Shown: piece by piece, positions 2,764-41,270 of the stretch
Numbering within the stretch: the first letter of the stretch is position 1
Layout of the letters: each line of letters starts with the position of its first letter
DNA from: Methanomassiliicoccaceae archaeon DOK
GTDB taxonomy: Archaea > Thermoplasmatota > Thermoplasmata > Methanomassiliicoccales > Methanomethylophilaceae
Assembly (NCBI GenBank): GCA_009911715.1
Contig: CP047880.1
Span: forward strand, 1,302,001 to 1,366,000
DNA: 64,000 nucleotides
Direction of reading: 5' to 3'
Notes under the pieces: generated by a model
The model's database searches: none
What the model was told of the DNA's origin: nothing
The model's input: the letters and a program-made list of their open reading frames with translations, nothing else
Position numbers and translations under genes: made by a program

Positions 2764-2883
2764 CCCATCACCTTTGGTTGGGAATTGGCTGGAGGGTAAT
2801 TAACGTTTGTCGGTGACTGGTGGAGGTGTGGAAAATCTCCGTTCCAGCGGAAGTGCCAGCATGGATAGGAATAGGTTGAAGTT

Positions 2884-3000
2884 GGGTCCCCGACCCCTTA
2901 ACTCCGGGGACCCGTTTGCTGTTCAGGTTTCTGGTGAGTTGCGCTCTCTCAACGCGGGAGCAGATGTACTCGTTTGTTCGCGTTCTTGTGCGTTCAACCC
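2884..3000 (-). repeat. conserved 3' element, copy A (after giant gene A)
   Basis: Lies between the stop of giant A and the zinc-ribbon operon. Read in the sense of gene A it has a conserved GGGTTGAACG box (3000-2991), a conserved block containing GAGTACATCTGCTCCCGCG and TTGAGAGAGCGCAA, an AACCTGAA box, and a terminal hairpin with stem 2884-2892 / 2905-2913 (GGGTCCCCG / CGGGGACCC on the plus strand) around the invariant loop AGTTAAGGGG. Same element as at 12729, 16581, 21840, 30074 and 40821. Confidence 0.85.
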
Positions 3001-3025: not shown

Positions 3026-6000
3026 TCAGCTCCTCATGAGCCTCATGGCAACCATGATGGCCATGATCACGATGAGGATGACGAGGACGATCAGGAGGTA
3101 GTCGGTGAGACCCATGTCGGATCCGTTTCCTCCCTCGATGACAACAGATGTGTCTGCGGGGGTGGCTCCGGAGGCAGCGAGAGTGAAGGACACATCGCCG
3201 GCGTTGATGGTGATGGTTCCTCCATTCTGGACGGTCTGTCCGTTGAAGGTGATGGTTGCGTTGTCGATGCTGTAGTTGGCGTTGGCCGTGATGGTCACGG
3301 TGTGGGTGCCGACAGACAGGTAGTATCCATAATTCTCACCAATTGTCAGGTATGTGTCGATGGTCAGGCCGTCGATGTAGATGGTCAGACCGGTTCCCTG
3401 GGAGATGGTTCCGGGGACGTCCGAGACAGCGAACTGAGCGTAGGCGGCATCGTAGGCGGAGATCCTGTCGGTGTTGCCGAAAGCAGCTTCCTGCTGTCCG
3501 GCGACAGCCTCCTCGGCGGTCTCGTACCACCTGGGGTTGGTGTCGTATCCGTTCAGCTCGATGGCTCCGTCGGCACCGTTGATGGAGTTGACGGGGAGGG
3601 TGCTGGTTCCGTAGGCGTAGATGGTGGCATACTCGGCCTCGTTGATGTAGTACACGGTGCTGGCAGCCTCGGACTCGCCGGTGGCGGGGTTGAGCTGGAT
3701 GGCGGCTCCGCTGAGGTCGGCTCCGGCGTAGGCCAGGATGTATCCGAATCCGGCGGGGCTGAATGTGACGGTTCCAGTAACGGCCCCGGTCGCTGCGGAG
3801 TTGAGCTGGGAGGGCTTGTCTCCGAGAATCAGCTTTCCGAAGCTGTTGGCAGAGGTTCCGCCGATGACCAGCTCCTCTCCGTCGGCGACGGACAGGGTTC
3901 CGGTGACGCGGACGGTGTTGGTGTCGATGTTGAGTCCCTTGGAAGCGTCCAGGGTTCCGGAGACCTCGATGGCTCCGATTCCGTCGATACCGTCGGCGTG
4001 GTTGACCTCGAGGGTTCCCTCGATGACGACCAGAGGCTGTCCCTTGTCGCCGGTGGCCGTGACATTGAGGTCGCCGGCGTTGTCGATGACCATGGTGGCT
4101 CCGGAGGCGACGGTCAGTGTCGCATCCTTTCCGACGATGACGTCGGCTGTGACGGTGCCGGCGGACACGGTGACGGCTCCAATGTATTCTCCGGAGACCT
4201 TGACGTCGTACTCGGTGGCGGAGGCTCCCTCGGTGACCGTGGTCTGGAGGGTGACGCTCTGGGCGTTGGTCATCTGGACGGACGCGTTGGAGGTTCCGTC
4301 TCCGCAGGGGGCTGCGAAGGTGGCGGAGACGCGGGTGTTGTCTCCGATCTGGACGTTGACGTTTCCTCCGAGGGTGATGGTTCCCGCGGAGAGGATTGTC
4401 ATGTTCTCGGGGGCGTTCGGGTTGGTGGTGTCGACGGTCATCTTCACGATGCTGATGTTCAGGGCGAGGTCCTCCACGGATGTGAAGGTGACGTCTCCGG
4501 CGGAGACGATTCCCTTGATGGTGACCGTGTTTCCGGCGAGGTTGTCGTTCTCGCTCGCGGTCTCGGCGGCGAATGCGATGTTGGAGACGTACCAGTAGGT
4601 GGAGGCTCCGGACATGATTCCGAAGTGGGCTCCGGCGACGTTGGCCATGGCCGCGGGCTCCGCGGAGGTCATGGTCCTGGCGTAGAAGACGCCGTTGATG
4701 ACGATCTCGGAGTCCTCGTCCTCGGTGTTCACGGTGATGGCGCCCTCGGTGGTCTCGAGCATGGCGAGGGTTCCGTTGACGGTCAGTGTGGCTCCGTCGA
4801 CGTAGATGGAGCTGTTGTTGTTGTCCGCTGCGGGTGCGACGTTGGTTGTGACGGTCACTCCCTCGGGGATGGTGAGGTCCTCCTCGATGGTGATGGCCCT
4901 GTTGAGGGTGATCTCGGTCATTCCGGACTCGATGGCGTTGGCCAGGGAGGTCCAGGTCCTGGAGGCACCCTGGGTGGACATGACGTCGGCGAGGACGGCC
5001 TTGACGTTGAGGTCCTCGGCGTAGTCCTGGGATGTGAAAGTTCCCTCGACGACGATCTGTGTGGTGTTTCCTCCGGTTATCGTGGCTCCGTCCGCAAGGA
5101 CGACGGTGGCGTCCTCTCCGACGGTGATGGACCCGTTGTTCTGGATCTGCACGTCGATTCCGGTAGCGATGCTCACGTCCTCTCCGACGGTGACGTTTCC
5201 GAGCACGGTGATCCTGTCGTTGTCGGCATCGAGGGCGGCAGCGACGGCGTCAGCGAAGTTGGTGTAGTAGTCTGTGGTGGTGGCATCGACGCCCGTGGTC
5301 TTGACGACGTACTTGACGGCGTTGATGTTGGTGATGGCCATGGCGTTTTCGGATGTTGCGATAAGTCCGTTGACCGTGATGGGTCCGGAACCTGTCATCT
5401 CCTTGTTGTCGGCAGGGTTCGCATTCTTGGCGGTGAAGAACTCGATTCCTCCATCCACCACGAGGGCGTGGTTGACGGTGAAGTTGACATAGTTGCCGAA
5501 GTTGAGTTCGGCTCCCTCTGCGACCATGACATAGGCAGAGGCTTCATCATCCATTGTGCTCTTGACGGGAGCTATGTCGTTGCTGCTTATCAGGACGGTC
5601 GCCGAGTTGTCGTTGATAACGGCTGTGGCCTCTCCGCTTACAGACATGACGGTCCTGTAGTTGCGTACGTTCTTGTCCTCGGCACCGGTGGTGTCGACGT
5701 AGTCGAACCTCTCGCTGACGACGGATACGGTGACGTTCTCCACATTGGTGAGAGAGACGACGTTTCCGTCGGAGACGAACTGGCCTTCCCTGATGGACTC
5801 GTCCAGGATTCCCTTGTCGGTGACGTTGACGGTTCCAGAGACGGATCCGATTGTGATGGTCTGGCCATCGTACAGGACGATGGTGGCACCGGTGGATGTT
5901 CCATCGATGGAGACGGTGCCGAAGTCGTGGATGAATCCGGACATTGTTCCGTTCATGGCGAGGGTTCCGTAGACCTCGAACATGTCGGCGTATCCGGACT

Positions 6001-8488
6001 TGCCGGCTCCTACCTTGTCATATCCGGTTGCAGGTGCCTCGAGGATGTTCTTGTTCCTGTTGTTGTCGGCGACGCCGGCGATGGTGACGGTTCCGTTCTC
6101 GTTGATGACGAAGTCTCCGTCGACGTCGAGGACGGATCCGCCTGTGGCGTACTCTCCAACGGTGACGGTTCCGTTGATCTCGGCGGAGGAACCGGCCTTG
6201 AACTCGGCCTCTCCGAGGATTGTCAGAGTTCCGTTCACGACGAGGCTCCCGCTCTGGTAGACGTACATTGTCGTCCTTGCGGGAACGGTGGCGGTGCTGT
6301 CGATAACGAGGGTTCCGTAGACGTCGACGAGGGATGTGACGTTACCGGTGAGGGTCAGGGTGGTTCCGTATCCGACGCTGACCTGGCTGGAGGTGTTCTG
6401 GTAGACGACATCCTCGTTGTTAACATCAACGGAGGATCCATCCTTGGCGTCGACGATGATGAAGAGGTCGGACTCTGTGATGTCGAGGGAGGATCCCTTG
6501 CTGACAACGATGCTGGAGTCTGTCCTGTTGCTCTGGACTGTCACATCCTCCATCGTCACGGAGGCCCTCTGTCCGGCATCGGTTCCTTTTCCGATCTGGA
6601 TTGTGATGTCCGATCTTTCAGCGATCTCGATGGTGATTCCGTTGAGGTCGAGTGTGTCCGTGATGACTATCTTTCCGCTTCCGGTGAAGTTGACGGTCAT
6701 TCCGGGCTGAGCTGTCTTGAGAGCTTCGACGGCCTCGGGATTGTCGCCTGTACCGCTGATAGTGATCGTGATGTCAGTCTCGCTCATGTCGGTGACGTTT
6801 CCGGGCGTAGTGACGAACGTGAGGACCTCGCTCTCGTTCATGGCATAGACCTTGCATCCGTTGGCACTATTGACAATGGGCTTCGCAAGAGCATCGGACT
6901 CGGCCCTGAGGCTTCCGAGAACGAACAGTTTCGCAGAGTCCTGGAGGGTGATCTTTCCGTTCTCGCCGTCAAAGATGACGGTCTCGTTGCTTCCGATGAC
7001 TACATTTTCGGTCACGTTGATCGGGGAAGAGATCGTGATGGATCCGATGGTGACTTTGTTGAGGTTGACGGTGTATCTCTCATTGGCAGTGACGCCGTTG
7101 AGCTTGGTGTCGAAATCGCTGTAGATTCCAGAGGCGATTGTCTGTCCCTGGGTTCCGAGGATCTCCACGGTGGTTCCTGTGAATTTGATGTGCGAGTTTC
7201 CGTTGCCCTCAAAGGAGATGTCAACAGAAGCGACAGTGTCGTTTCCGGAAATCCTGTTGACGGTTCCGTCGAAGGATCCGTTTCCGCGGATGTACATGGA
7301 TCCATCAGCGTTGAAATTGACGGTTCCAGTCGCACCAGCCTTGTTTACGAACAGGGTTCCGGAGTAGGGCTCATCGCCGAAGGATCCGACGAGAGTAACG
7401 TTGGTTTTCGCAGATCCAGTGAAGGATCCATCCGCGACGTAAATCGCGTCGATTCCGCTGTTGCTGGCAGTGATGCTGTCAGCTTTGACTGTTCCAGCGG
7501 CTCCGACGGAGAGTTTTCCGTTCTCACCGACGATAATGGTTTCGGCCTTGAGGGTTCCGTTCACGATGAGGGTTCCCTGGACGCTCACATTGGTGTAAGA
7601 CTCCTCCCCAGTGATGGTGTAAGTGACTCCAGCAGCGACACTGAAGTTGTTCTGAACAATGTCTCCGTTAGCATCCTGAGTGTAGTTGGTCTCAGGCACT
7701 GTGGTGTCATAGTCATAATCGGTGTAGTCTGTCCTGTCGTAGACGTTGGTGCAGTCCTGGTAGTCGTTGTCGTCCACAAGACTGTCCTCCTGGGCAGGGG
7801 TGAGACCGAGGGTGGTTGTTGTGAAAGAATCAGATCCGAAACGGTCGTTCATAGAGTATTTCTCGGCCACAGTGATTCCAGAAGCGGACCATTCCTGGCT
7901 TCCAGAAGTAGCAGTGGATTTGAATCCCACGAAAGTGTTGCCCTTGATGTCGAGATTCGCATCGGATGTTCCATAGGGGAATATTGTGATGGCGTTAGCA
8001 AGCTCTCCGTTCTCGTCAAGCGTGAAGGTGCATCCGGTGATGGACACCTGCTTTCCGAGGAGTGTGATTCCAGACCTCTCGAGAGTCTGTTTATCATCTC
8101 CCTTGACGAAGATATTGAGTCCCTGAAGGGACACACCATCCACAGCAACAGCTGCTTTTCCATTGAGACCGTAGATGGCGAATCCGCCGTAGATGTTGAC
8201 CTCGGCGTTCTCAGCCGCCTTAATGGTCAGGGGTTTGTCAATTTTATACACACTGTAGCTGGAGGAAGTACCGTAGTCTCCGGCGGACAGCACGAGTGTA
8301 TCGTTGGGCTGAGCAGCATCGATGGCTGCTTGGAGGTTGTCAGCGGAATTGGGAGCAACATTAGTTTCCACTCCCTGGACCTCCTCAGAGGGCATGACGA
8401 CAGCAAGCGCGCAAACAACCATGGCGAGCACGGCGATGGCGGCGAGCAGTTTGGTCTGCCTTCCTTTCTCATTCATGTTCATTATCAT
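3026..8488 (-). CDS. giant adhesin-like surface protein A
   Basis: 1820 residues. A basic N-terminus (MNEKGRQTK) and hydrophobic core form a signal peptide (about residues 1-40). From about residue 48, DNLQAAIDAAQPNDTLVLSAG begins a pectate-lyase-like right-handed beta-helix, and most of the chain is Gly/Val/Thr/Asn-rich solenoid with recurring VxGTLxVxxG turns. Two longer repeats have the form YTNFADAVAAALxxxxxRITVLG (about 1075) and TWTSLANAIESGMTEITL (about 1180). A conserved pre-anchor module (YYINEAEYATIYAYGT) and an Ig-like domain (GTGLTIYIDG...VGTHTVTI...ITFNGQ, about 1690-1770) precede the membrane tail GLTDYLLI-TM-RLMRS (1792-1820). Predicted to be anchored with the bulk outside the cell. 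Three closely spaced ATGs (8488, 8482, 8476) leave the exact start open. Ligand unknown. Bacterial gut adhesins show similar repeats. Confidence 0.9.
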   Translation of the reverse strand: MIMNMNEKGRQTKLLAAIAVLAMVVCALAVVMPSEEVQGVETNVAPNSADNLQAAIDAAQPNDTLVLSAGDYGTSSSYSVYKIDKPLTIKAAENAEVNIYGGFAIYGLNGKAAVAVDGVSLQGLNIFVKGDDKQTLERSGITLLGKQVSITGCTFTLDENGELANAITIFPYGTSDANLDIKGNTFVGFKSTATSGSQEWSASGITVAEKYSMNDRFGSDSFTTTTLGLTPAQEDSLVDDNDYQDCTNVYDRTDYTDYDYDTTVPETNYTQDANGDIVQNNFSVAAGVTYTITGEESYTNVSVQGTLIVNGTLKAETIIVGENGKLSVGAAGTVKADSITASNSGIDAIYVADGSFTGSAKTNVTLVGSFGDEPYSGTLFVNKAGATGTVNFNADGSMYIRGNGSFDGTVNRISGNDTVASVDISFEGNGNSHIKFTGTTVEILGTQGQTIASGIYSDFDTKLNGVTANERYTVNLNKVTIGSITISSPINVTENVVIGSNETVIFDGENGKITLQDSAKLFVLGSLRAESDALAKPIVNSANGCKVYAMNESEVLTFVTTPGNVTDMSETDITITISGTGDNPEAVEALKTAQPGMTVNFTGSGKIVITDTLDLNGITIEIAERSDITIQIGKGTDAGQRASVTMEDVTVQSNRTDSSIVVSKGSSLDITESDLFIIVDAKDGSSVDVNNEDVVYQNTSSQVSVGYGTTLTLTGNVTSLVDVYGTLVIDSTATVPARTTMYVYQSGSLVVNGTLTILGEAEFKAGSSAEINGTVTVGEYATGGSVLDVDGDFVINENGTVTIAGVADNNRNKNILEAPATGYDKVGAGKSGYADMFEVYGTLAMNGTMSGFIHDFGTVSIDGTSTGATIVLYDGQTITIGSVSGTVNVTDKGILDESIREGQFVSDGNVVSLTNVENVTVSVVSERFDYVDTTGAEDKNVRNYRTVMSVSGEATAVINDNSATVLISSNDIAPVKSTMDDEASAYVMVAEGAELNFGNYVNFTVNHALVVDGGIEFFTAKNANPADNKEMTGSGPITVNGLIATSENAMAITNINAVKYVVKTTGVDATTTDYYTNFADAVAAALDADNDRITVLGNVTVGEDVSIATGIDVQIQNNGSITVGEDATVVLADGATITGGNTTQIVVEGTFTSQDYAEDLNVKAVLADVMSTQGASRTWTSLANAIESGMTEITLNRAITIEEDLTIPEGVTVTTNVAPAADNNNSSIYVDGATLTVNGTLAMLETTEGAITVNTEDEDSEIVINGVFYARTMTSAEPAAMANVAGAHFGIMSGASTYWYVSNIAFAAETASENDNLAGNTVTIKGIVSAGDVTFTSVEDLALNISIVKMTVDTTNPNAPENMTILSAGTITLGGNVNVQIGDNTRVSATFAAPCGDGTSNASVQMTNAQSVTLQTTVTEGASATEYDVKVSGEYIGAVTVSAGTVTADVIVGKDATLTVASGATMVIDNAGDLNVTATGDKGQPLVVIEGTLEVNHADGIDGIGAIEVSGTLDASKGLNIDTNTVRVTGTLSVADGEELVIGGTSANSFGKLILGDKPSQLNSAATGAVTGTVTFSPAGFGYILAYAGADLSGAAIQLNPATGESEAASTVYYINEAEYATIYAYGTSTLPVNSINGADGAIELNGYDTNPRWYETAEEAVAGQQEAAFGNTDRISAYDAAYAQFAVSDVPGTISQGTGLTIYIDGLTIDTYLTIGENYGYYLSVGTHTVTITANANYSIDNATITFNGQTVQNGGTITINAGDVSFTLAASGATPADTSVVIEGGNGSDMGLTDYLLIVLVILIVIMAIMVAMRLMRS

Positions 8489-12698: not shown

Positions 12699-12728
12699 GC
12701 TATCGTCGAATAAGAAAAGGGGGAAATC

Positions 12729-12837
12729 GGATCCGGCCCCTTAACTCCGGATCCTTGTTTGTCATTCAGGTCTCTGTGAGGATTCACGTTCTCTCAACGT
12801 GCGAGCAGATGTTCCCGTTCGTCTGACGTTCGAACCC
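12729..12837 (-). repeat. conserved 3' element, copy B (before wHTH gene)
   Basis: Terminal hairpin GGATCCGG (12729-12736) / CCGGATCC (12747-12754) on the plus strand; the sense-strand loop is AGTTAAGGGG. The stem differs from the other copies at most positions but remains perfectly paired. The upstream block reads ACGTTGAGAGAACGTGAA, where paired positions change together relative to copy A. The hairpin ends 30 nt before the wHTH start codon. Confidence 0.85.
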
Positions 12838-12862: not shown

Positions 12863-15800
12863 TCAGCTCCTCATGAGCCTTGTGGCGACGATGATCGCCA
12901 TGATGACGATGAGGATGACCAGGACGATTAGGAGGTAGTCGGTGAGTCCGAGGCTGCCGGAGTCTCCACCGTTCTCAATGACGACCTGTCCTGAGGACGG
13001 GACGGCACCGGAGACCATCAGAGTGAACGTCGTCATGTCGGAGGTGATCTCGATTGTGCCTCCGTTCTTCACAGTCTGTCCGTTGAAGGTGATGGTGGCG
13101 TTTGTTCCATCGTATCCCGTGGTGACATCGAACGAGATCACATGGGTCCCTACTCCAAGCTGGTATCCCACATTCGGGTCCCATGCGAGACTGTCGATGT
13201 AAAGGTTCAGACCGGTTCCAACGGAGATGACTCCTGTCACAAGTGCAGGCTCCATTCCGATGTAGATGTTCTCGTAGTCTCCGATCTCGAAGTTGCCCTT
13301 TACTGCTGCGAGCTTCTCCTTGAAATCTGAGAAGTCGTAGGTGTCGTTCTGGGCGTCATAGATGATGCCCTTGAATCCGTCGATGACCCCAATCAGCTCG
13401 TTGTAGATGGTGTTCCCTTCAGACTTGAAGTCGTTGATGCAGTCGGTCATTCCCTCGTCGACGTAGAACTTGGCGGTGTCATACCTGACGCCGTTGACTT
13501 CGGTCATGAGGAGGATGAGCTCACCGTAGACGCCATCCTTGGCGTAGACCGTCGCAACCTCGTTTCCGTTGACGAAGAACTTGGTGCTGTTGATGGTGGT
13601 GGATCCAGGCGCGACGATCTTCACTCCGCTGACATCGGATCCAGGGTAGGCGACGATGGCCTCTGCGTTAACGTCACCGGAGATCGTTCCGTTGATGAGT
13701 CCTACGACGTAGGATGCGGAAGCTCCCTCCTGGGAGGCGACTGTTCCGTTGACCATGGTGACTACCTTGTTCACGAAGGTTCCGGTTCCGGTGATGTTGA
13801 CGGTTCCGTTGATGTATGCGACATCAGCAGTGAGGTCGCCGTTGACAGTGACGGTTCCGTTGACCTTCAGTCCTGCAAGACCGGATACGACAGAATCGGT
13901 GAAGAGAGGCATGTTTCCGGATGTTGTGTTGAATCTGTATCCGGGGTTGGTGCCGGCGATGAGGCTGCCCTCGTCCCTGATGACGAGCTCTGCGCCCTCG
14001 GCGACGGTCATGTTGTCCGTGTTGTAAGTGGCAGTGATGTACACGGTGCCGGATACGATGGTGATGGCACCGTCGGAGGTGGCAACGCCTCCACTGGTCC
14101 TGTTCATGGATGCGATCTGCATCTGGTAGGTCGTCTCCTCGTCTGTACCGATCGCGACATTGGAGATTGTGGCATCCTTGTTGGCGTCCAGAGAGATGGT
14201 CGCGCCTCCAGCGGTGATGCTGCCGGTCAGGTCCCCATTGTATGTGTTGACTGTGACCTTTCCGGAGAGGGTGATGGTTCCAGCTACGGCGGAGTCGTCG
14301 GAGTTGTTGTAGATGTACACGGTCTGGTCAAGTCCCTCTGGGGCTGTGAATGTGACATCACCCATGTTGACCTTGCCGTAGAAGACGATGGTTGTGGTTG
14401 TGGAGGACGCATCGGCTGCGACGGAGGCGGAGGAGATGAAGTTGCCCTCGACCTCGCCGACGGTTCCGTTGAAGTAGGCGCCGTCGAGGATGTCGCTGTC
14501 GGTGCTCCAGTCATTCCAATTGATGAAGTTAGCATCGTTCACATTGGAGATGTAGTTGTTCACAACGATGTTGCCGTTCTCGGCACCGGCCTTGTCGGAT
14601 TTAGTGAGCTGGAACTGGGTTCCGCTCATGTTCAGGACTCCGTTGACAGTGAACGTGGCGCTCTCCACGATGATTCCGGGAGTGTCAGCAGCTGTGTCAT
14701 CCACAGTGCCGTCGGCGACGACAGTGACTCCCTCGGGAATGGTCAGGTTCTCGTCGATGGTGACGGTTCCGTTGAGGTTGATGGTCTCGCCGGACTGGGC
14801 CTCGGAGAGCGCGATCTTGAGCGTGGTGTATGTGTAGATTGTCTCGGTGTCGGTGTCCGTGGTCTTCTTGACCTCGTACTTCATCTGATCCTCGTTGATG
14901 TTGGTGTCGTGATCGACGAGTTTGCCGAGGACGTACATTCCGCTCCATGTGCCCTCGAACTCAAGGGACGCATCTGCAGAGACTGTGACGGTGGCTCCCT
15001 CGGCGACGATGGCTCCACAGAGGACGGTAACATCGGTGTCGTCGGGGATTGTGACATCAGAGCTGATGACGTAGCTTCCGCGTCCGTCATCGGGGTTCTG
15101 TCCGGTGTACCAGGAGTTGGCGAGTCCGCAGATGTAGACGTCGGTGACGCCTCCGGCGACGGAATCAGTGATCGCGGTCTGGAGGTCTGTGATGTGTGTG
15201 ATGCCGTTGTCGTCCTCCCAGAATGCTCCGTAGACGGCGAATTTTCCATCCACGGCCGAGTTATTGTCGATGTTGACGGAACCGCCGTTGACTGCGAGTA
15301 TTCCCCTGTCGTTGTTGTTATTCTGAGAAACAACAGCGTTCGCATCCAGAGTCATCTTTCCGACGACTTCGATGGTTCCCTGAATGGTATTGACTTCGGT
15401 TGCAGTTTCAGGAGATTTGATGTTCAGCTCTCCGTTGAGGAGGACATATGTTCCAGAGGTAACATTGAACTTGGCCGTGTCCTCGACGGTCAGCTTACCG
15501 CCAATTACGACGGTTCCCTGTACGAAGTCGTTGTACATATGGGACACTGTGGCTTTTGCCGCATCTTCGGATGTGTAGTATCCAGAGAGATCGTTGCCGT
15601 TAAGGGTGATGCTTCCATCGGCGACTGTTCCGTCGATGTTGAGCATGTACTGCTTGATGAGTGTGGTTCCATCAGCGTCCTTCTGATAAGCGTTGATGTT
15701 GCTGGTAGTGGTGGTGAATGTCAGATTGGAAACGTCCTTTGTACCAGCAGTTGTGTTACTGATCTCGATGGAGGCATCGGAGACAACGGTGCCGGTTCCA

Positions 15801-16405
15801 TAGGAAGAGACTGTGAAACCACTGTCGGAGAGGCCGTTGAACTTGAATGTTCCTCCAACGGCGATGTTGGCGTCGATGTTGGAGATGGAGGCGTTCTTCT
15901 TGACCTCAAGGGTTCCTCCGTTGTTGATGAAAATCTGCCTGTCAGAAGCATCAGATGTGATGATTCCGCTGTTTGTAGCTGTGAGTTTTCCGTTGACTAC
16001 GACAGCGTTAGACTCGATATCGGTGGTGGACTCCCCATTAATGGCAAATGAAGAGCCTTTATTGACCTCTACTTCTCCATTGATTGTAACGAGGCCACCA
16101 GTTACTGTAATCTTACCTCCGTTCTGAAGGGTGATTGTGACGCCTTCGTCGACCATGAAGTTTCCGTTCATGATCTGGAGGTCTCCCGCACCGCTAATTG
16201 TTAGGTCTTCGACGACCCTGATGTTAACATTATTGAATGGCTGGGGAGCGGTCAGGGTGTTAGCTCCGTAGATCTGATAATCGTCATTAGACGCCGCATT
16301 GCTCTCCTCAGAAAAGAGGAGTGCAGAGCCAGCAAACACCATGGCGAGCACAGCTACCAGAGCGAAGAGTTTCACTCCGTTCGTTTTGTTCATTATAGCA
16401 TTCAT
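12863..16405 (-). CDS. giant adhesin-like surface protein B
   Basis: 1180 residues, the smallest of the six. The signal peptide is of the NKTNGVK class (about residues 1-38). The body is a Gly/Thr/Asn-rich beta-solenoid with many VNGTL/VNGxL turns. A long repeat YTTLKIALSEAQSGETINLNGTV sits near residue 525 and is followed by ENLTIPEGVTVVADG, the unit also found in the paralogues. A pre-anchor module (KFFVNGNEVATVYAKDG), an Ig-like domain (GTGLNLYIDS...VGTHVISF...ATITFNGQ) and the tail GLTDYLLI-TM-RLMRS (about 1152-1180) close the protein. Anchored extracellular protein by architecture; ligand unknown. Third gene of the tandem array D-C-B. Confidence 0.9.
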   Translation of the reverse strand: MNAIMNKTNGVKLFALVAVLAMVFAGSALLFSEESNAASNDDYQIYGANTLTAPQPFNNVNIRVVEDLTISGAGDLQIMNGNFMVDEGVTITLQNGGKITVTGGLVTINGEVEVNKGSSFAINGESTTDIESNAVVVNGKLTATNSGIITSDASDRQIFINNGGTLEVKKNASISNIDANIAVGGTFKFNGLSDSGFTVSSYGTGTVVSDASIEISNTTAGTKDVSNLTFTTTTSNINAYQKDADGTTLIKQYMLNIDGTVADGSITLNGNDLSGYYTSEDAAKATVSHMYNDFVQGTVVIGGKLTVEDTAKFNVTSGTYVLLNGELNIKSPETATEVNTIQGTIEVVGKMTLDANAVVSQNNNNDRGILAVNGGSVNIDNNSAVDGKFAVYGAFWEDDNGITHITDLQTAITDSVAGGVTDVYICGLANSWYTGQNPDDGRGSYVISSDVTIPDDTDVTVLCGAIVAEGATVTVSADASLEFEGTWSGMYVLGKLVDHDTNINEDQMKYEVKKTTDTDTETIYTYTTLKIALSEAQSGETINLNGTVTIDENLTIPEGVTVVADGTVDDTAADTPGIIVESATFTVNGVLNMSGTQFQLTKSDKAGAENGNIVVNNYISNVNDANFINWNDWSTDSDILDGAYFNGTVGEVEGNFISSASVAADASSTTTTIVFYGKVNMGDVTFTAPEGLDQTVYIYNNSDDSAVAGTITLSGKVTVNTYNGDLTGSITAGGATISLDANKDATISNVAIGTDEETTYQMQIASMNRTSGGVATSDGAITIVSGTVYITATYNTDNMTVAEGAELVIRDEGSLIAGTNPGYRFNTTSGNMPLFTDSVVSGLAGLKVNGTVTVNGDLTADVAYINGTVNITGTGTFVNKVVTMVNGTVASQEGASASYVVGLINGTISGDVNAEAIVAYPGSDVSGVKIVAPGSTTINSTKFFVNGNEVATVYAKDGVYGELILLMTEVNGVRYDTAKFYVDEGMTDCINDFKSEGNTIYNELIGVIDGFKGIIYDAQNDTYDFSDFKEKLAAVKGNFEIGDYENIYIGMEPALVTGVISVGTGLNLYIDSLAWDPNVGYQLGVGTHVISFDVTTGYDGTNATITFNGQTVKNGGTIEITSDMTTFTLMVSGAVPSSGQVVIENGGDSGSLGLTDYLLIVLVILIVIMAIIVATRLMRS

Positions 16406-16440
16406 AGGAACACATGACGAATCCTTCCTAAACGGCGTGA
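16406..16440 (-). promoter_or_regulatory. conserved start-proximal leader, giant gene B
   Basis: Same block as before giants A and C: ACGCCGTTTAGGAAGGATTC then GTCATGTGTTCCT immediately before ATG. A TATA-like CTATACAAATC lies further upstream (minus strand, about 16553-16543), giving an inferred leader of ~110-120 nt. Confidence 0.6.
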
Positions 16441-16539
16441 AACAAGAAGTTTCTACATTGAATCCGACCAGCTGCGGTTTGAAAATCGTCAGAAAACATG
16501 CTGAAATCGTCTTGAAATCGGTTCAGAGGAACAGATGCT

Positions 16540-16556: not shown

Positions 16557-16580
16557 CGGGAAAGGGTAAAATGTAAGGTG

Positions 16581-16697
16581 GAGGGACGGCCCCTTAACTC
16601 CGTCCCTCTCGTTTGCTGTTCAGGTTTCCGTGGGTTCACGCTCTCTCAACGTGGGAGCAGATGTACTCGGTTTTTCACGTTCTCTGTCGTTCAACCC
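16581..16697 (-). repeat. conserved 3' element, copy C (between giants C and B)
   Basis: Hairpin GAGGGACGG (16581-16589) / CCGTCCCTC (16600-16608), sense loop AGTTAAGGGG. The second conserved block reads CACGTTGAGAGAGCGTGAA, again with matched changes (CACG/CGTG instead of GCG/CGC). The GGGTTGAACG box is at 16697-16688. Here the element is followed by the promoter of the next giant gene, not a wHTH gene. Confidence 0.85.
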
Positions 16698-16722: not shown

Positions 16723-19700
16723 TCAGCTCCTCATCAGCCTGATGGCGACGATGATTGCCATGACGACGATCAGGACCACGAGGACGATGAGCAGGTAGTC
16801 GGTGAGGCCGAGGCTGTCGTCTCCGCCAGTGGACGGTGTGTCGGGGGTGACGGGTCCAGATGCCTCGACTCCTGTGATGACGATGTTGTACACAACGAAG
16901 TCTGTGGTGGTGCTACCATACTGCTCTCCGAACGGATGCTCGAAGTCGATGTCTCCGTGGTAGTCGACATCGTCCTTGAGGTAGGGCATGTCGGAAGACA
17001 GTGTGAACTTGCCGTCGGTCATTGTCTGACCGTTGATTGTCATGGTAACTGTTCCAGAGAATCCGTTGTCGAGCCTGTATGTGACGGTGTGCTCACCTGC
17101 GGGAAGCATGATGTAGACGTTGCCGTAGTACCCAGAGAGTCCGGCGGTGGCTACGAGGTCTCCGTCGACATAGACATCGGAGATTCCCGACTCGATGGTG
17201 AACGTCACCAGGTATACATCCTCGACGATGTATGCGCTGACGGTGTTGATGGTTCCAACCATATCAGTTGCGGCGACAGGAGTGACCTTTCCGTCCTTCT
17301 CGTACTGCCAGTAGTCGGCGTAGACTCCATCGAGGACGGGTGTCAGGACAGCGTTGATCTGGACGTTGTTCAGAACAGTGTATACTGTCATGTACAGCTC
17401 GTCCTGCACCATGTACGCGGTGGTCTTCTTACCGTTGATCTGGGCATCACTGACAGTATTGTCGGCCGCGAGGTAGATTGTCTGGACAGATCCGAGGGCG
17501 CTCTCGGCATTGACAACGGCACCAGTGTATGTGTTCCACTTATCATCGACTCCGATGTAGAGGCTCTTGACGGTGGTGGCTCCGGGCTGGACGCCGGCAG
17601 CGGTGTCGGCGGCTCCGACGGTGAAGGTTCCGAGGACGTAGATAGTCGTAATGTCTGCGTTTCCAGACTCCTGTGCGACCAGGGTACCCCTGATGATAAC
17701 CTTGTCAGCATCGACCTTGGCGTTGCTGCCAGTTATGGTCAGTGTGGCTCCCTCCGCGACTTCGAAGTCGACGTTAACGGTGGCGGTTCCGAGGACATAT
17801 ACCTGTCCGCTTGCGATAGAGATGGACGGGTCGTCCACGTTCTGACCGGTCTCGGCCTGGTTGACGGTTCCGAATACGGTCATTCCCATGACGTCCGCGG
17901 AGACCTCAGTAGAGGCAGCGGTGAGTCCGGTGACGTTGACAGCGTCGACGGATCCCTCGGCTGTGGCGACTGTTCCAGTGAACCAGCCGTTCACGGCGAG
18001 TGCGGCGTACTGCAGGGTGACGGTTCCGGCGTTCAGCTCAGCGGCGGCGTAGTTGTCGGCGGCGGTGCCGTTGGTCTTGGCTCCCATGACGGTGACGGTC
18101 ACGGGCTCGGTCTCAGTCCCGGTGAAGGCGATGTCTCCGACAGTGTTCTCTCCATAGATGTAGATGGCAGTGGCGTCGGATTCGGCTGCGATGGCGACGG
18201 GCTCGATGAACTTGTACTGTCCGGTGGTCGTCAGAGCGATGTAGTACGCTCCAGCGACATCGTAGTAGGTGTACAGCTGATCAAGAGTACCGGCCTCTGT
18301 GGTCTGGAAGGTTCCGTTGACGACCAGCCTGGATGTGGTGTCGGAGACCTCCTCATCGAAGGTGGTCTCAGCTGCGATCTGGGATGCTGTGGTGAGGTTA
18401 CCGTTGACGGTCAGGGTGACATTGTTGTTGACGGTCACGGTGGATCCGAGGGGCACGACGAGGGTAACCTCGGCGGGCACGGTGAGGTCGGAAGTGATGG
18501 TGACGTCGGTTCCGGTGATGGTGACAACGTCTCCGGGCTGTGCGCCAGCAAGGGCGGTGGCGACGTTGGTGTAGGTGATCTCGTTGCCGTTCTCGATGGT
18601 GACATCGCTTTCGACGTCTCCCCTGTCGTTCCTGTCGTTGAGGAAGTGGAGCGTTGAGAAGACGACGGCATCGGCTCTGACATCACAGCCGTCTGCGATG
18701 TCAACGGTGATTCCGCGGTTGTCGGCGGCTCCGATCTGGAGGGTTCCGGTTCCGTTGATGTTGACGGTGGCGGGGACCTGCACACTCTCGTCGACGATGA
18801 CCGTTCCCATGACCTCAAGGGAGACCTTGGTGGTCGCGGCGGAATTGTCGGCGACAGCTGTGGCCAGAGAGGTGTAGATGTTCCTGGGCTCAGATGCTGC
18901 CCTGTAATAAACAGCGTTGACGTCGGTGACAGTCTCATATGCGGAGATCTTTCCGGTGACGGTGGTCTGGCTTCCGCTCAGGTTTACTCCTTCAGCTAGG
19001 GTCACTGTACCGGAAACGGTGAAGAGCCCGGAAACTTTGATATCGATATTCTCGTCGACGTTCAGAGTTTCAGTAACTTCGACTCCAGTTCCAACGATGT
19101 TTTCGTCAGAAACGTGAGCTGTACTGGAGATGTCGATTTTGATGATGTTGCTAGTCTCACTAATCTGATCGTTAGAGTTGACATTCACAGAGGCGTTTCC
19201 GGACATCTGCAGAGAATTGACGTAGCTCGTGACGCTTCCCTGCGTCTTAGCGATGACGGACTCTGTGAAGATAAGACCCTCGATTGCAGAGTTGACATAG
19301 GATGTATCTTCGTCAAGACTGATAGTCACACTGTTGTTATTGAGTGCGACGGTCTGACCGACGGTAAGACCAGCATCAGTGATTTCCAGAGATGCACTTG
19401 TGCTTCCGAAGGAAACGGAGTGAATGTTGACGACGGCTCCAGATGCGGCCATGTTGATGGTGGCAGCTCCGGCGATGCTGGCACCGTCCATGGTGATGGT
19501 TCCAGAGTTCTTGATTCCGCTGGTATCGACGGCACCCTGGAGACTGAGTGTTGCCTCGGATCCGATTTCGAGTCCGTTGTTGGCTGTGAATGTACCCATG
19601 GAGGTGACCGAAGCCGATCCTGTGAGCTTTGTGGGTGCGTTGAATGTAAGTGCAGCGTCCTCCTCAGAGGAAACGGTTCCGGAGATGTCTACCTCTTTGG

Positions 19701-21666
19701 ACTTGGTAACGGTGAAAGCTCCGGTCTCATAGACGTTGAGGTTACCAGCGATGATTACATTGGCAGTGCCACTGTTCACGATGATTCTGGAACCCTCCTC
19801 GATGTACACGGTGGTTCCCTCGGGGATCTCCAGCCCTCCCTGAATGGTGAGCGTGGCCTGTCCGGTGACGGTGAGTGTACCGGATACGACCATGTTCTGG
19901 TTAAGGGGGAAGGTTGTGTTGGTTCCGTAGACTCCGGTCAGCTCTGCATCGATCATGGCACCGGAGACGTTGATTGTTCCGTCTCCAGAAAGGGTGATGT
20001 TCTTGAAGACAGCACCATTGAGAGCATTCCAGACTCCAGGAGTCTCTGCACCGTTAACATTGCTTGTATCGACGGTAATGGCGTAGATGTTGTTAGAGGG
20101 AGTACATTCAGATCTAGTGTCATCAATCGCAGTAACTGTTCCATACTGATTTACTGTTCCGTAAACTTTAACGCTTCCAGAGGTGAATCCAAGATCGACA
20201 CCTTTCATTATGTTCAAGGTGGCTCCGAGAGGTACGTTGGTTCCGATAACATAGGATCCGGAAACAAGAGTGAGTTCGCCAGCATTTATCTGCACAGCAA
20301 GAGTTCCTTTATAGGGTTTGACAGAACCCTGGAAGTCATCACCCATGATGTAGGGGGGTTCGGCTCCGAGGTTGAGGGACCGAGCACTCGTGGCGTCCAC
20401 GATGGTAATGGTTCCGGTGAATGCTCCGGTCGCTGTGAGGCTACTGGCTTCAAGTGTGGAGCCAGAGGCAACAGTGAAAGTAGTGTTGTCGGCGACTGTG
20501 AGTGCTCCGTTGACTTTAAGAGTGGTTCCGTTGGAAAGGGAGACGTTTCCTTCAGTCGTAAGGGCTCCAGAGACCACAAGGTCCTCTCCGCTGGCGGAGA
20601 AGAGAGGCAGGTTATCAGCGGTGATGGTGGGAATTAAGACACTGGCATCGTTAAGGTCGATGACATTGGTAATCGTACCTGTAACGCCCTTGTGAACAAA
20701 CGAGCCGCCCTCGTAGACGGTGATGCTTCCGCTGACTGTGATTGATTTCACTGTTTCGGGAATGGTGAGTGTTGCGCCGGCGGGGATGACGATTTTATCG
20801 CCGATTGTGACGGCATTGTCGGTGACTTTCATGGTGCCGTCCTCGAGCCACATTGCTCCAAGAGATTCGGTATCGGAGTTCATCCATCCATATTCCTCGA
20901 AGTCCTCGGAACCGGTAAACGACACGTTACCGGCCTCAGACCAGATCTGGGCCTGCTCTCCAAAGTTGTTGGATCCGGACAGGGTGAAGTTGGCTGTTCC
21001 GTCGTCGCTATCGACGTTGATTCCGCCCCAGGCGTTGCCGGAGGTGGTGATGTTGGATGCGCTGACGGTGGAGGACTGCTCCGCATTGTCACCGCCGTTG
21101 ACGACGATTCCGGCGGCACCGCAATCTTTGATAGTGATGTTATCGAGCGTTACATCGGCTCCGACCATGTTGATTCCATGCTTGGACTTGCTTGTGTCGG
21201 CGGCATAGTCTCCGTCGATGATCAGATCGCTGACGCTGTACTCAGCGCCATCATAGAATCCGATGACACTGGTCTCGTTGGTTCCTTTGAAGGTGATTGT
21301 GTTGTCGCCACCGTTGATGGTTATGGTGACATCGTTGGAGTTGTCAAACCACAGCGCGGCCTCGGATACTTCAACACCCGAGGGGATCACTGTGAAACTC
21401 TGGTTGATGGTTATCTCAACATCCTCGGTAGCTCCGTTGACCGCATCGAGGAATGTGGTAAGTTCTCCACTGTTAACGGGGACAGGTTTTCCGTCTCCGA
21501 TCGTGTACGTGATGATGGCGCCTGTCCCATCGCCAGTGGCGTTGGTGGTACCATCCACATTCTCGGAAGGCAGGACTACGGCCACAGCACAGACAACCAT
21601 CGCGATGATGGCGATCGCGGCCAGCAGTTTGGTCTGCCTTCCTTTCTCGTTCATTATAGCATTCAT
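16723..21666 (-). CDS. giant adhesin-like surface protein C
   Basis: 1647 residues. The signal peptide is of the NEKGRQTKLLAAIA class, almost identical to A and F. The first ~270 residues form a typical right-handed beta-helix (ITIKDCGAAGIVVNGG, NITTSGNAWGGINVDS). The long middle is a repetitive solenoid with units such as NIYTSLATAVADNSAATTKV (about 935) and YTNVATALAGAQPGDVVTITG (about 1040), each followed by a VPAEVTL/VPATVNI strand. The pre-anchor module is AYMVQDELYMTVYTVLN. The C-terminal Ig-like domain has a His/Asp-rich insert (DDVDYHGDIDFEHPFGEQY) not seen in the others and could bind a metal (inference). Tail GLTDYLLI-TM-RLMRS. Middle gene of the D-C-B tandem. Confidence 0.9.
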   Translation of the reverse strand: MNAIMNEKGRQTKLLAAIAIIAMVVCAVAVVLPSENVDGTTNATGDGTGAIITYTIGDGKPVPVNSGELTTFLDAVNGATEDVEITINQSFTVIPSGVEVSEAALWFDNSNDVTITINGGDNTITFKGTNETSVIGFYDGAEYSVSDLIIDGDYAADTSKSKHGINMVGADVTLDNITIKDCGAAGIVVNGGDNAEQSSTVSASNITTSGNAWGGINVDSDDGTANFTLSGSNNFGEQAQIWSEAGNVSFTGSEDFEEYGWMNSDTESLGAMWLEDGTMKVTDNAVTIGDKIVIPAGATLTIPETVKSITVSGSITVYEGGSFVHKGVTGTITNVIDLNDASVLIPTITADNLPLFSASGEDLVVSGALTTEGNVSLSNGTTLKVNGALTVADNTTFTVASGSTLEASSLTATGAFTGTITIVDATSARSLNLGAEPPYIMGDDFQGSVKPYKGTLAVQINAGELTLVSGSYVIGTNVPLGATLNIMKGVDLGFTSGSVKVYGTVNQYGTVTAIDDTRSECTPSNNIYAITVDTSNVNGAETPGVWNALNGAVFKNITLSGDGTINVSGAMIDAELTGVYGTNTTFPLNQNMVVSGTLTVTGQATLTIQGGLEIPEGTTVYIEEGSRIIVNSGTANVIIAGNLNVYETGAFTVTKSKEVDISGTVSSEEDAALTFNAPTKLTGSASVTSMGTFTANNGLEIGSEATLSLQGAVDTSGIKNSGTITMDGASIAGAATINMAASGAVVNIHSVSFGSTSASLEITDAGLTVGQTVALNNNSVTISLDEDTSYVNSAIEGLIFTESVIAKTQGSVTSYVNSLQMSGNASVNVNSNDQISETSNIIKIDISSTAHVSDENIVGTGVEVTETLNVDENIDIKVSGLFTVSGTVTLAEGVNLSGSQTTVTGKISAYETVTDVNAVYYRAASEPRNIYTSLATAVADNSAATTKVSLEVMGTVIVDESVQVPATVNINGTGTLQIGAADNRGITVDIADGCDVRADAVVFSTLHFLNDRNDRGDVESDVTIENGNEITYTNVATALAGAQPGDVVTITGTDVTITSDLTVPAEVTLVVPLGSTVTVNNNVTLTVNGNLTTASQIAAETTFDEEVSDTTSRLVVNGTFQTTEAGTLDQLYTYYDVAGAYYIALTTTGQYKFIEPVAIAAESDATAIYIYGENTVGDIAFTGTETEPVTVTVMGAKTNGTAADNYAAAELNAGTVTLQYAALAVNGWFTGTVATAEGSVDAVNVTGLTAASTEVSADVMGMTVFGTVNQAETGQNVDDPSISIASGQVYVLGTATVNVDFEVAEGATLTITGSNAKVDADKVIIRGTLVAQESGNADITTIYVLGTFTVGAADTAAGVQPGATTVKSLYIGVDDKWNTYTGAVVNAESALGSVQTIYLAADNTVSDAQINGKKTTAYMVQDELYMTVYTVLNNVQINAVLTPVLDGVYADYWQYEKDGKVTPVAATDMVGTINTVSAYIVEDVYLVTFTIESGISDVYVDGDLVATAGLSGYYGNVYIMLPAGEHTVTYRLDNGFSGTVTMTINGQTMTDGKFTLSSDMPYLKDDVDYHGDIDFEHPFGEQYGSTTTDFVVYNIVITGVEASGPVTPDTPSTGGDDSLGLTDYLLIVLVVLIVVMAIIVAIRLMRS

Positions 21667-21701: not shown

Positions 21702-21839
21702 AACGAGTTTTTTCTCACGGAGTTCAACCAATTAAGGTTTAGAACTCCTCAGAAAACAGGTCAAAATCGTCTCGAAATCGGTTCAGAGGAACCGATGCTC
21801 GATGATTTGTATAGTTCGGAAAGGGTAAAAAGTAAGGTG

Positions 21840-21949
21840 GAGGGACGGCCCCTTAACTCCGTCCCTCTCGTTTCCTGTTCAGGTTGCTGTGGGTTCACGC
21901 TCTCTCAACGTGGGAGCAGATGTTCTCGTTCACTTCGGCGTTCGTACCC
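21840..21949 (-). repeat. conserved 3' element, copy D (between giants D and C)
   Basis: Hairpin GAGGGACGG (21840-21848) / CCGTCCCTC (21859-21867) with sense loop AGTTAAGGGG; stem identical to copy C. The second block is CACGTTGAGAGAGCGTGAA. Copies C and D are embedded in a duplicated ~300-bp intergenic region. Confidence 0.85.
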
Positions 21950-21977: not shown

Positions 21978-24900
21978 TCAGCTCCTCATCAGCCTGAGGG
22001 CGACGATGATCGCCATGACGACGATCAGGATCACGAGGATGATCAGGAGGTAGTCGGTGAGGCCCATAGAGGAGTCGCCAGAGTTTCCGCCGTCGATGAC
22101 AACGGTGGAGTCCTGGGTGAGACTACCTGTTGCGGAGATCACGATATCCTCGATGGAGTTGATCATGTCGGATGTGATCGTGATCTCACCGTTGGTCACT
22201 GCCTGTCCGTTGAAAGTTATGGTCACGTTTCCGGAGAATCCGGGATCGATGACAGCGGACACGGTGTGGGTTCCGATAGTCAGGAGCTTGTCGGAGGTGC
22301 TGGTGTAGACAACGCCATCGACAGAGAGCGAGATGTGGCTTCCGACGGAGATGGTAACGGAAATCGAGTTGTACTGGATTTCGGTTGTGACCTCTGCGTA
22401 GTCTCCGACAGTCTCTCCGTCCTTGACCTCGCTGCCCTCTGCGTACCAAGTGGCGCTGAAGTCCTCGGTGTTGGATGGTGCAGGAGTGTACAGGTCGTCG
22501 AGTCCGTCAACAAAGTCATCGATGACATCGGAGTTGATGTCGATGCTGTCGAAGGTGTAGACTGTGACAAAGTCGATTCCATTGATCTTGTACGCTGTGG
22601 CGTTGATCTCAGAGGAGGTCTCGTTGGAGAATTCGGTCTCGGCGACGGAGGCTCCTGCGAAGACATAGACGACTGCCTCGTCTCCGAGAACGACCTCTCC
22701 GATGATGGATCCGGTGGTGGCGTCTCCGAGAAGCTCGGGAACCGCACCGACGATGAGGGTTCCGTTGACTCCGAAGTCTCCCTCGGCATCCACTGTGATG
22801 GTTCCAGTCACGACCAGAGGGTTGGCTCCGGCAAGAAGCTGGGCATCCTTTCCAACCACGACGTCTCCGGTGAGGGTGACGCCGTCGGCTCCGACGGACA
22901 GGATGGCGTCCTCATCGATTACGATGGATCCGTTGTTGTCGATATAGTCTCCACTGATGATGACATCGCCAGTGATGAGCAGAGTGGCACCGCTGTTGAC
23001 GGCGAGGACCTGCTCCTTGTGGGTGTTGATCTCATAGTCGTCGACACCAGCGAACTCGACGGTTCCGGCGACGACTGTGGTGTTGTTCACAACAGAGTCG
23101 ATTGTGATCTTGTACTCTGTGACTCCTTCAGCGTTGAGAGAGTCGACGCTCGCGATGGTGGCTGTGGTCTTGTTGACGGACACAGTGCTGGTGGTGGCGG
23201 CATCGCCGGCGCCAGTGAGTCCGGAAACTGTAGCGGTGTACTGTCCGGCCTTGTCGGCAGTGTTGCCGGATGCGGGCTGGGCGACGCTGATCTGTGCCCC
23301 GGTCAGGGTCACATCGCCGAGAGTTACGACGGAGTTGAGGGCGATGACGATGTTGACGTCGTCGGACTCGATGGCTCCACCCTCGGAGAATGTTCCGGTG
23401 GCGGTGATAGAGGGCAGGGCGTTCTCCTCAGCGTAGGCGATGGCCTTGGCGACCGAGGTGTACACTGTCTCGCCGGCATCGCTGTAGTATGCTGCGTTGA
23501 TGGTGACTCCTGTGATGCTGTTGCCGACAACGGATGTGGCTCCTGTGGAGTACATGTTGACCTTGCCTGTGTTGTCTTCGTTCTTGGCGATCTTTCCGCC
23601 CTCGGTGGCATCGAGGTCTCCGTTGACGGTGATTGTGTAGTCTCTGGCATTGTCCTTTCCGACGACGAGCTGGGCGTTGTTGTCCAGGATAAGCTTGCCC
23701 TCGGCTTCCACGGTGACGTTTCCAAGGACTGTCAGGACGATGTTCTCGTTGACGTCGACGGTGACCTGGGCGGGAATCACGAGGTTACCATCATACTCGG
23801 CGTTTCCGACGACGGTGACTGTCTGTCCAGCAGTCGCGTTGTCCAGTGCTACCTTGAATCCGGAGTAGGTAGTGGTGTTGTCCTCCACCGTCGTCTTCAC
23901 GGCGTAGATGTAGTGGCTGGTACCAGTAACGGTGGCGCTAGGCCTGTATCCGACACCCTCGGTGACGATGACACGTCCCTCGATGGTGTAGAACGCATCG
24001 TTGTCGATGGTCGCGTCTACGCCGACGGTAATCTGCCCGTCCTCTGCGACAACGATCTCGGAGTCGCCCTCGACCTCGATTGCCTGCTCTCCGGTGAGTT
24101 CGTATGTTCCGGAGATCTCGAAGGATCCGGATACTGTGACGAGGTTGTCCTGGACGGTGGCGATCTGGGCCATAGCGTTGGCGAATGTGGTGAAGTATGT
24201 GGTCTCGACGGGTGCGTTCTCGACGGTGGTCTCGACTACGTACTTGGCTCCGTAGTAATCAAATATAGAGGCGTTGCCGTCGTTGAGGACGATGGTTCCA
24301 GCCTCGGAGACGTCGAAGTAGCCGTTATCGGTGAATTTGATGGTGTTCTTCTCGGGTGCGGTCAGGGTTCCATCGATGAACACTGCTCCAGTGAACTTGA
24401 TAATTCCATCTTCTTCTGCATTGGTACTTCTGTCGTTATTGGTGAAGTCCAGAGTTCCACTGACGTACATCTGCTGGAAGACGTTGGATTTGGTGGCGTC
24501 ATCCTCGTCGGGGACGGTGATCCTTCCGACGGATACGGTGATTCCAGTGGTTCCATGGTAGATGACGGTCGTTCCAGAATCGTCCCTCACTCCATCAAGG
24601 GCGACTGTGGACTCATCAAGAGTTTCAAGGACGAACTCGTCGCCACTCTTAATCTGACCGACCTGGACGGTGATGGTTCCCTTTGTGGGAGCGTTGATGA
24701 CAGCGGATGCTCCGTTTCCGAGGACGAACTCCCCGTCGATCTGCATGTAGGCTCCGTTGTTGGTGAACACGACGTTCTTGGCAACGGTCGTGTTGTCCGT
24801 GACATAGAACTCCACGTTGCTTCCAATGGTCATAGCAGCGTCGATGTCAACGTTGCAGATGCTCAGCTTGTGGACATCGGTTCCGGTGACTCTGGAGATA

Positions 24901-30042: not shown

Positions 30043-30073
30043 CTCTGTTCACTTCCTAACAAAAAATAAATGT

Positions 30074-30189
30074 GGGGTCCGGCCCCTTAACTCCGGGCCC
30101 CTGTTCCTCTTCAGGTTACTGGCGAGTTGCGCTCTCTCAACGCGGGAGCAGATGTACTCTTTTATTCGCGTTCTGTGTGCGTTCAACCC
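30074..30189 (-). repeat. conserved 3' element, copy E (before wHTH gene)
   Basis: Hairpin GGGGTCCGG (30074-30082) / CCGGGCCCC (30093-30101), sense loop AGTTAAGGGG. Eight of nine pairs are canonical; the remaining one is G-T on the plus strand and C-A on the sense (minus) strand. The second block is GCGTTGAGAGAGCGCAA as in copies A and F. The GGGTTGAACG box is at 30189-30180. Confidence 0.83.
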
Positions 30190-35305: not shown

Positions 35306-35779
35306 ATAAGAGAACAATCAGAACGCGACCGATGGAAACTCCTTAGAAAGACCGCAGATGCCGTACGGTTCGGACACGATCGAGCCTCAATAGAAAGGGA
35401 GGACTCATTTTGGGAGAGCACGGTGCAATCGAAGGCATCTCCCGAGTGCATCAAATGCACCCCCTAAGGGCGCCCCGGCGGCCCTCCTATAATAATATGT
35501 ATATTAGGGAAGATGAGGGTCCGAAAGCAGAGAAGAATCGTCGATCCGCTGCTCCTGCCGTTCCCGAGAACGTGAAGATCCGTACAGGTGCCGATATCGT
35601 ATGATTCCGGTCGGAAGCGGTCGTCTAGGGGCCTCCGGAAGGTCCCGACCATGTCGGCGGTTTGTACAATCTCTGAGCTCTCGATGATTAGCTTTTTATT
35701 CTATCATTCATAACCGACCATATCCGAGAGAAAAAGACTCTTTCGGATGCAGAATTGGGATGCTCTGCTGGTGGGTCTG
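35306..35779. other. divergent intergenic region between giants E and F
   Basis: About 470 bases without a convincing gene. It holds the likely E promoter near 35487-35507 and a TTTTTATTC TATA candidate for F near 35692. Several short ORFs are present, but none has recognisable composition. Confidence 0.4.
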
Positions 35780-35795
35780 AAAAGGCTAGCCTTTT
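35780..35795. promoter_or_regulatory. 16-bp perfect palindrome upstream of giant F
   Basis: AAAAGGCTAGCCTTTT, 115 nt before the F start. An identical copy lies at 41569-41584 upstream of the recombinase. In both places CCCGGCTAA follows 17-32 nt downstream. It could be a regulator operator, a weak hairpin (AAAAGG / CCTTTT, loop CTAG) or a recombination-related site. Confidence 0.65.
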
Positions 35796-35910
35796 GGGTG
35801 TTCGATTCTGCCCGGCTAAGGTTGGATGTGAGCCGATGATGAGGGCGAAAAACCCTATGAATTGTCGGTTTGCAACAATTACAGCCGAAATGTAAGGAGC
35901 AGATGTTCCT

Positions 35911-40820: not shown

Positions 40821-40939
40821 GGGTTGAACGCAACGGATAACGCGAACATAAGAGTACATCTGCTCCCGCGTTGAGAGAGCGCAACTCACCAGAAACCTGA
40901 AGGACAAACGGGTCCCCGGAGTTAAGGGGCCGGGGACCC
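40821..40939 (+). repeat. conserved 3' element, copy F (before wHTH gene)
   Basis: GGGTTGAACG box at 40821-40830, GAGTACATCTGCTCCCGCG then TTGAGAGAGCGCAA, AACCTGAA, and the hairpin GGGTCCCCGG (40910-40919) / CCGGGGACCC (40930-40939) around AGTTAAGGGG (40920-40929). Perfect 10-bp stem. It ends 34 nt before the wHTH start and lies on the opposite strand from the other five copies, as expected for a part of the gene unit. Confidence 0.87.
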
Positions 40940-40973
40940 ACATTACCGATTCTCGACAACCAGGTGATATAGC

Positions 40974-41270
40974 ATGGATGAAGGCACACTTCTCGGAACC
41001 CTTCTCCACTCCGCCAACAGCCTGGACATCCTCCTCTACATCCGCGACCATCCCGGATGCGTGAAGTCCGCCGTCTACCGCGACGTCACCCGCAACGCCC
41101 ACACCGCCGACAGGATCGGAAGGATGGCGGACATGGGCCTCATCGACATCGCAACGACCTCCCGTCCGAACACCGTCGTCCTGACCCTCACCGAGAAGGG
41201 GATGCGGTTCACGGACCATCTCCTCGCCGCTGAGTCCGTGCTCCGCGGAACAGTACCAGATGACCGTTGA
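40974..41270 (+). CDS. winged-helix regulator after giant gene F
   Basis: 98 residues, start fixed by the ribosome site AGGTGATAT five to six bases upstream. Single winged-helix domain: GTLLHSANSLDILLYIRDHPG, VKSAVYRDVTRNAHTADRIGRMADMGL, then TSRPNTVVLTLTEKGMRFTDHLL. Paralogue of the genes at 12402 and 29752, again directly behind a giant gene and the hairpin element. It lies between giant F and the tyrosine recombinase. Regulator by fold; target unknown. Confidence 0.83.
   Translation: MDEGTLLGTLLHSANSLDILLYIRDHPGCVKSAVYRDVTRNAHTADRIGRMADMGLIDIATTSRPNTVVLTLTEKGMRFTDHLLAAESVLRGTVPDDR

Follow-up and report, generated by a model that had tools for sequence, protein, structure and literature searches.

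The giant surface-protein genes of Methanomassiliicoccaceae archaeon DOK and its relatives are followed by a structured 3'-UTR element of about 100 nt. The box at the beginning of this element, ACAUCUGCUC, is the reverse complement of a leader sequence, GAGCAGAUGU, that covers the Shine-Dalgarno site of several of these genes. This points to a message whose tail regulates its own start. The element, its link to the giant genes and the covariation of its two hairpins, P2 and P4, are established by sequence, and it is near certain that an RNA structure is under selection here. That the P4-containing element is a cis-regulatory RNA which pairs with the ribosome-binding site, like that of icaR in Staphylococcus aureus, I regard with modest confidence as probable.

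The window, i.e. the whole stretch of 64,000 nt that was analysed, contains six giant genes with their elements (Table 1), and the initial annotation had described a hairpin with changing stem and invariant loop behind each of them. In the window there are exactly six occurrences of the loop, AGTTAAGGGG, against an average of 0.04 and never six in dinucleotide shuffles. All six lie where they had been placed, within the 3' UTRs of open reading frames of 1180-1820 aa and on their sense strand. The stems are indeed of 8-10 bp and fall into the four classes described, which truly differ and retain their pairing; the one imperfect pair, in copy E, is a C.A mismatch, while the loop of copy A is closed by a G-U pair. 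The whole genome (G000, one contig of 1.89 Mb) has nine copies, all behind genes of the same family and three of them outside the window, with the loop AGTTAAGGGG in eight and AATTAAGGGG in one. The invariance of the loop can be upheld within this genome; in relatives, however, it drifts, for example to AGAUAAAGGG, GAUAAGGG and AAUAAGGG. Likewise, the hairpin itself is real but is no stand-alone unit, as it forms the 3' end of a longer element. The rest of that element and the complement in the 5' leader had been missed, and the strongest clue, the box with its leader complement, lies outside the hairpin at 2884-2913. The giant genes are paralogues whose N-terminal and C-terminal ends are conserved, the product of gene F having a signal-like N-terminal segment and a C-terminal membrane tail, GLTDYLLI..RLMRS, and none of the giant proteins has a significant match in Pfam or NCBIfam.

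Table 1. Positions of the elements, giant genes, leaders and neighbouring genes in the window.
Feature	Position	Strand	Details
3'-UTR element, gene A	2876..2972	-	box 2958-2967, P4 hairpin 2884-2913, loop 2894-2903
3'-UTR element, gene B	12719..12817	-	box 12803-12812, P4 hairpin 12729-12754, loop 12737-12746
3'-UTR element, gene C	16572..16669	-	box 16655-16664, P4 hairpin 16581-16608, loop 16590-16599
3'-UTR element, gene D	21831..21928	-	box 21914-21923, P4 hairpin 21840-21867, loop 21849-21858
3'-UTR element, gene E	30065..30160	-	box 30146-30155, P4 hairpin 30074-30101, loop 30083-30092
3'-UTR element, gene F	40851..40947	+	box 40856-40865, P4 hairpin 40910-40939, loop 40920-40929
Giant gene A	3026..8488	-	1820 aa, type-1 leader
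Giant gene B	12863..16405	-	1180 aa, type-1 leader
Giant gene C	16723..21666	-	1647 aa, type-1 leader
Giant gene D	21978..27197	-	1739 aa, type-1 leader
Giant gene E	30215..35269	-	1684 aa, type-1 leader
Giant adhesin-like gene F	35911..40794	+	1627 aa
Leader site GGAGCAGATGTTCCT, immediately 5' of gene F start	35896..35910	+	Shine-Dalgarno and exact 3'-box complement
Leader of gene F, common to gene H	35658..35923	+	79% over 275 nt
Type-1 start box of gene B, TTCACGCCGTTTAGGAAGGATTCGTCATGTGTTCCT	16406..16441	-	
Small ORF, winged-helix-like by eye	40974..41270	+	98 aa, directly 3' of F element
Tyrosine recombinase (Phage_integrase)	41658..42620	+	320 aa

In the aligned 3' UTRs, conservation starts about 60-70 nt 5' of the terminal hairpin, and the order from 5' to 3' is box, P2, linker and P4. 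P2 is a small covarying hairpin with a loop that is mostly GAGRG, the linker usually contains ACCUGAA.AG.AAAC, and P4 is the terminal hairpin with the purine-rich loop UAAGGG, flanked as AAAC-[hairpin]-CACCUUAC; its stem varies freely while loop and flanks are retained. There are 31 different terminal stems and 19 different upstream stems. In an alignment of 43 copies, which leans to structure because it was fitted to a model, 15 of 19 pairs have changed on both sides, doubly changed cells number 134 against 31 (sd 5) in shuffles, and 95% of cells are paired, compared with 31-46% once the partners are slid. A swap test agrees; it used arms that were parsed separately but had been chosen for pairing. 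Thus the reading of the changing stem as a selected structure is strengthened by compensatory change across 14 genomes, and stem changes elsewhere stay compensated. Two further candidate helices, P1 (GAG/CUC) and P3, have weak support as conserved helices, the evidence being carried by P2 and P4, and the partner strand of P1 is lost in the single-copy group. A pseudoknot between the P4 loop and a downstream CCUUA can be dismissed by reasoning, as the linker, with its roughly 2 nt, is too short to reach across a 9-bp stem. The box is retained in 42 of the 43 copies, even in those whose P2 and P1 are wholly altered. In the single-copy group of G079, G083, G084, G090, G091 and G092, longer stems capped by UUCG or another loop take the place of P2 and the box stays, with one change in that of G084. 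Its predicted accessibility is only moderate (mean 0.62). Rfam 15 has no match in the window, nor for the region of copy C up to E = 5, and the element has no match in the phage and viral collections.

A covariance model built from nine copies and searched in 147 genomes of the order returned 36 copies in 8 of them; a second model, combined with inspection of the context, gave the 43 copies in 14 Methanomethylophilaceae genomes, and a third scored the distant ones among these at about 50-52 bits and added two from G088, which are left out of the count of 43. The accepted copies belong to one genus (g1) and to one genome (G115) of another genus in the same family, and the suggested search of archaeal genomes, covering up to 400 of the class, likewise gave accepted matches only in one archaeal family. 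A fixed-pattern search of a collection of 84,980 species found matching copies only in Methanomethylophilaceae/Methanomassiliicoccaceae MAGs, including UBA71 and one from sheep colon. Two low-scoring matches were not counted: one in another family (G415) that is unconvincing at 27 bits, and one in G115:C21 at 29.5 bits in which the box was not seen. The proposed link to the giant genes holds: 42 of the 43 copies come after a giant surface-protein gene, and in the 39 copies measured automatically 41-65 nt separate its stop codon from the box. The sole copy away from a giant gene is an orphan in G100 (L095:11449-11544, + strand). Some copies (in G099 and G097; L104, L109, L110 and L111) follow a second type of large surface protein with a different membrane tail, DDDTTTYIVAIAAAAVVAILAALILMQTRKS or similar, and since the element follows this type too, it is not just carried along with one protein end.

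The evidence for pairing includes the seven single-copy genomes (G079, G083, G084, G089, G090, G091 and G092). In all seven, AGGAGCAGATGTT lies immediately 5' of the start of the sole giant gene and the box lies past its stop codon, so that the exact complement of the box overlaps the Shine-Dalgarno site of the same gene. In this genome the same holds for genes F and H, two of the nine giant genes. Overall, the 3' UTR is complementary to the gene's own Shine-Dalgarno region in 11 genes, with an exact match of 10-13 nt as compared with a maximum of 6-8 in windows of the coding sequence, and its duplex energy is not bettered in any of about 60 windows. Within 12 nt of an ATG, AGGAGCAGATGT gives 19 pattern matches in the 31 genomes of the genus versus 4 for the reversed pattern. 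The leaders are themselves predicted to fold: in six single-copy genomes a hairpin has GCAGAUG in its loop, while its stem contains the Shine-Dalgarno site and AUG, and the hairpins predicted for F and H have AGAU in the loop. In the leaders of L152-L157, a second small hairpin, CCGGGC..GCCCGG, occurs just 5' of the Shine-Dalgarno hairpin, with changes that are apparently compensated. A leader site, AAAAGGAGCAGATGTTACTATG, is also present on the minus strand of L101 in G074 (around 6154), followed by an ORF of 11 codons and no giant gene.

The match is not universal. It is absent in seven of the nine giant genes of this genome despite their 3' box; these use a type-1 leader, with a start box like that of gene B also preceding A, C, D and E, and no Shine-Dalgarno site is present in the last 18 nt of the five type-1 leaders checked in the window. 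Some genes in G074, G086, G097 and G100 also have the 3' box without the leader match. Compensatory change between box and leader was looked for and not found, and the box is more conserved than its putative leader partner. In G088 (L240 and L243), the box and P2 occur in the 5' leaders of two adhesin-like genes, about 130 nt before the start; these leaders are long and GC-rich, and Rfam gives one sub-threshold match elsewhere in one of them and none at gathering level. Because of the unmatched leaders, the absent covariation and the 5' position in G088, the box may have another partner or act in trans. In G098, related leaders carry GGAGCAnnUGU or similar before the start without a 3' box; in the 3' UTRs of the same gene family (L196-L199) there are two modules in tandem, each of ACCUGAA.AG.AAAC and a hairpin, again without the box.

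Taken together, the matches favour, if by no great degree of certainty, the view that the box serves to pair with the leader. In the proposed mechanism, the box ACAUCUGCUC would pair with GAGCAGAUGU in the 5' leader, which holds the Shine-Dalgarno site and part of which would be presented in the loop of the small predicted leader hairpin. Such pairing would block the entry of ribosomes once the 3' end of the mRNA has been made, and the mRNA would therefore repress itself; by analogy with icaR, the sign of control is most likely negative. Paralogues could be repressed as well if a 3' fragment were released. The role of P4 would most likely be to protect the mRNA at its 3' end or to define that end.

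I know of no described family of structured 3'-UTR RNAs in archaea whose members pair with the ribosome-binding site of the message they belong to, and none was found in the open-access papers searched. If the pairing is real, long-range 5'-3' control of the icaR type would extend from a bacterium to the archaea, conserved across species in a defined RNA family and testable by sequence swaps, and it would offer a way to study the control of giant surface proteins in gut methanogens. In the icaR mRNA of S. aureus, a short 3'-UTR motif, UCCCCUG, complements the message's own Shine-Dalgarno region, and when the two pair, initiation of translation is inhibited and the duplex becomes open to cleavage by RNase III (PMC3868564). 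The elements described here share a 3'-UTR motif complementary to the own Shine-Dalgarno region, but they are archaeal, their exact match is longer (10-13 nt), and the box is part of a covarying structured element conserved over species and paralogues, with the pairing read from sequence. In the methanogen Methanosarcina mazei, sRNA162 is a small RNA in its own right, whose targets are both cis- and trans-encoded (PMC3510493); regulation of mRNA by RNA-RNA contact is predicted here as well, by a 3'-UTR element of the regulated gene rather than by a separate RNA.

Alternatively, the element may serve only the 3' end, with P4 and its flanks terminating transcription or stopping exonucleases, the UAAGGG loop perhaps bound by protein, and the leader match unused in the cell. 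This is unlikely but deserves to be taken seriously, as the P4 stem varies with loop and flanks kept, and as genomes without the box (G098, G073, G080, G095 and G044) keep, in the corresponding position, a GC-rich hairpin preceded by CCUGAA.AG.AAAC or a similar string, so that P4 is the older and wider module. However, it leaves the box, P2 and the exact leader complement in all single-copy genomes unexplained. A GC-rich hairpin past the stop codon also recalls intrinsic terminators, but these lack the conserved loop and flanks and the extra upstream module, and a TTTT run within 40 nt past P4 is found in just 13 of 43 copies, too few for a U-tract terminator; as the upstream string is confined to these elements in this genome, P4 is not a general terminator either. 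Somewhat more doubtful is action in trans, in which a 3'-UTR fragment or orphan copy is an sRNA with the leader as one of several targets, or in which box and P2 bind a shared protein or RNA partner. The invariance of the box in paralogues with unmatched leaders, the orphan in G100 and the 5' copies in G088 speak for this. On the other hand, besides F and H no further exact target with AGGAGCAGATGT near an ATG was found in this genome, and in single-copy genomes the pair is kept inside one gene, as fits cis control.

The elements could also be sites in DNA, where a tyrosine recombinase inverts or moves genes at the 13-bp 5' and 3' copies, as inverted repeats, or at single-stranded P4. A recombinase lies 0.7 kb past the element of gene F, with close homologues adjoining elements in G097 and G100; genes A and F share 67 identical bp that begin exactly at -7 despite different leaders; and the genome has nine copies of TGTTCCTATGA, one for each giant gene. 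Still, I consider this improbable, since the single-copy genomes retain both sites and have only distant relatives of the recombinase or none, and in several of them a related ORF in the same orientation begins after the element; that the sites lie in UTRs and that P2 and P4 covary also favours RNA. A variable-stem hairpin behind each gene of an array, near a tyrosine recombinase, resembles the attC sites of integrons, but their core pair RYYYAAC/GTTRRRY is present in 0 of 43 copies, and the recombinase in the window scores 39.9 bits against a cut-off of 265 for the integron integrase model TIGR02249. Finally, as the genes are paralogues with conserved ends, their 3' ends might be alike merely through recent copying; this is hardly credible, as the stems differ yet stay paired over 14 genomes and the element also follows the second protein type with its other membrane tail. 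Pairing in cis remains the preferred reading.

Recombination at the gene-start box is a question separate from the 3' element, and the recombinase beside the array raises that of surface switching in these archaea. An array of paralogous large surface genes with a common gene-start box and an adjoining recombinase is found in site-specific antigen switching by tyrosine recombinases too, but here, with one assembly per species, no rearrangement has been seen; I know of no counterpart of the 3' RNA in those systems. As seven genes have the other leader and the recombinase lies near F, one may speculate that the type-1 genes, without Shine-Dalgarno site in their leader, are cassettes that share two expression leaders, those of F and H, with exchange by the neighbouring recombinase at the gene-start box. 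The 3' box would then be common to all cassettes since each of them, after its installation, has to pair with the shared expression leader and so control it. Such RNA-locked switching is a tentative and rather doubtful proposal. Among the giant genes of the window there are also defence-like genes (SIR2_2, AbiH and AAA_21, at 8726-10399, 10627-11688 and 28157-29422), and small winged-helix-like ORFs directly follow the elements of genes B and E as well, with similar ones in G074 and G097.
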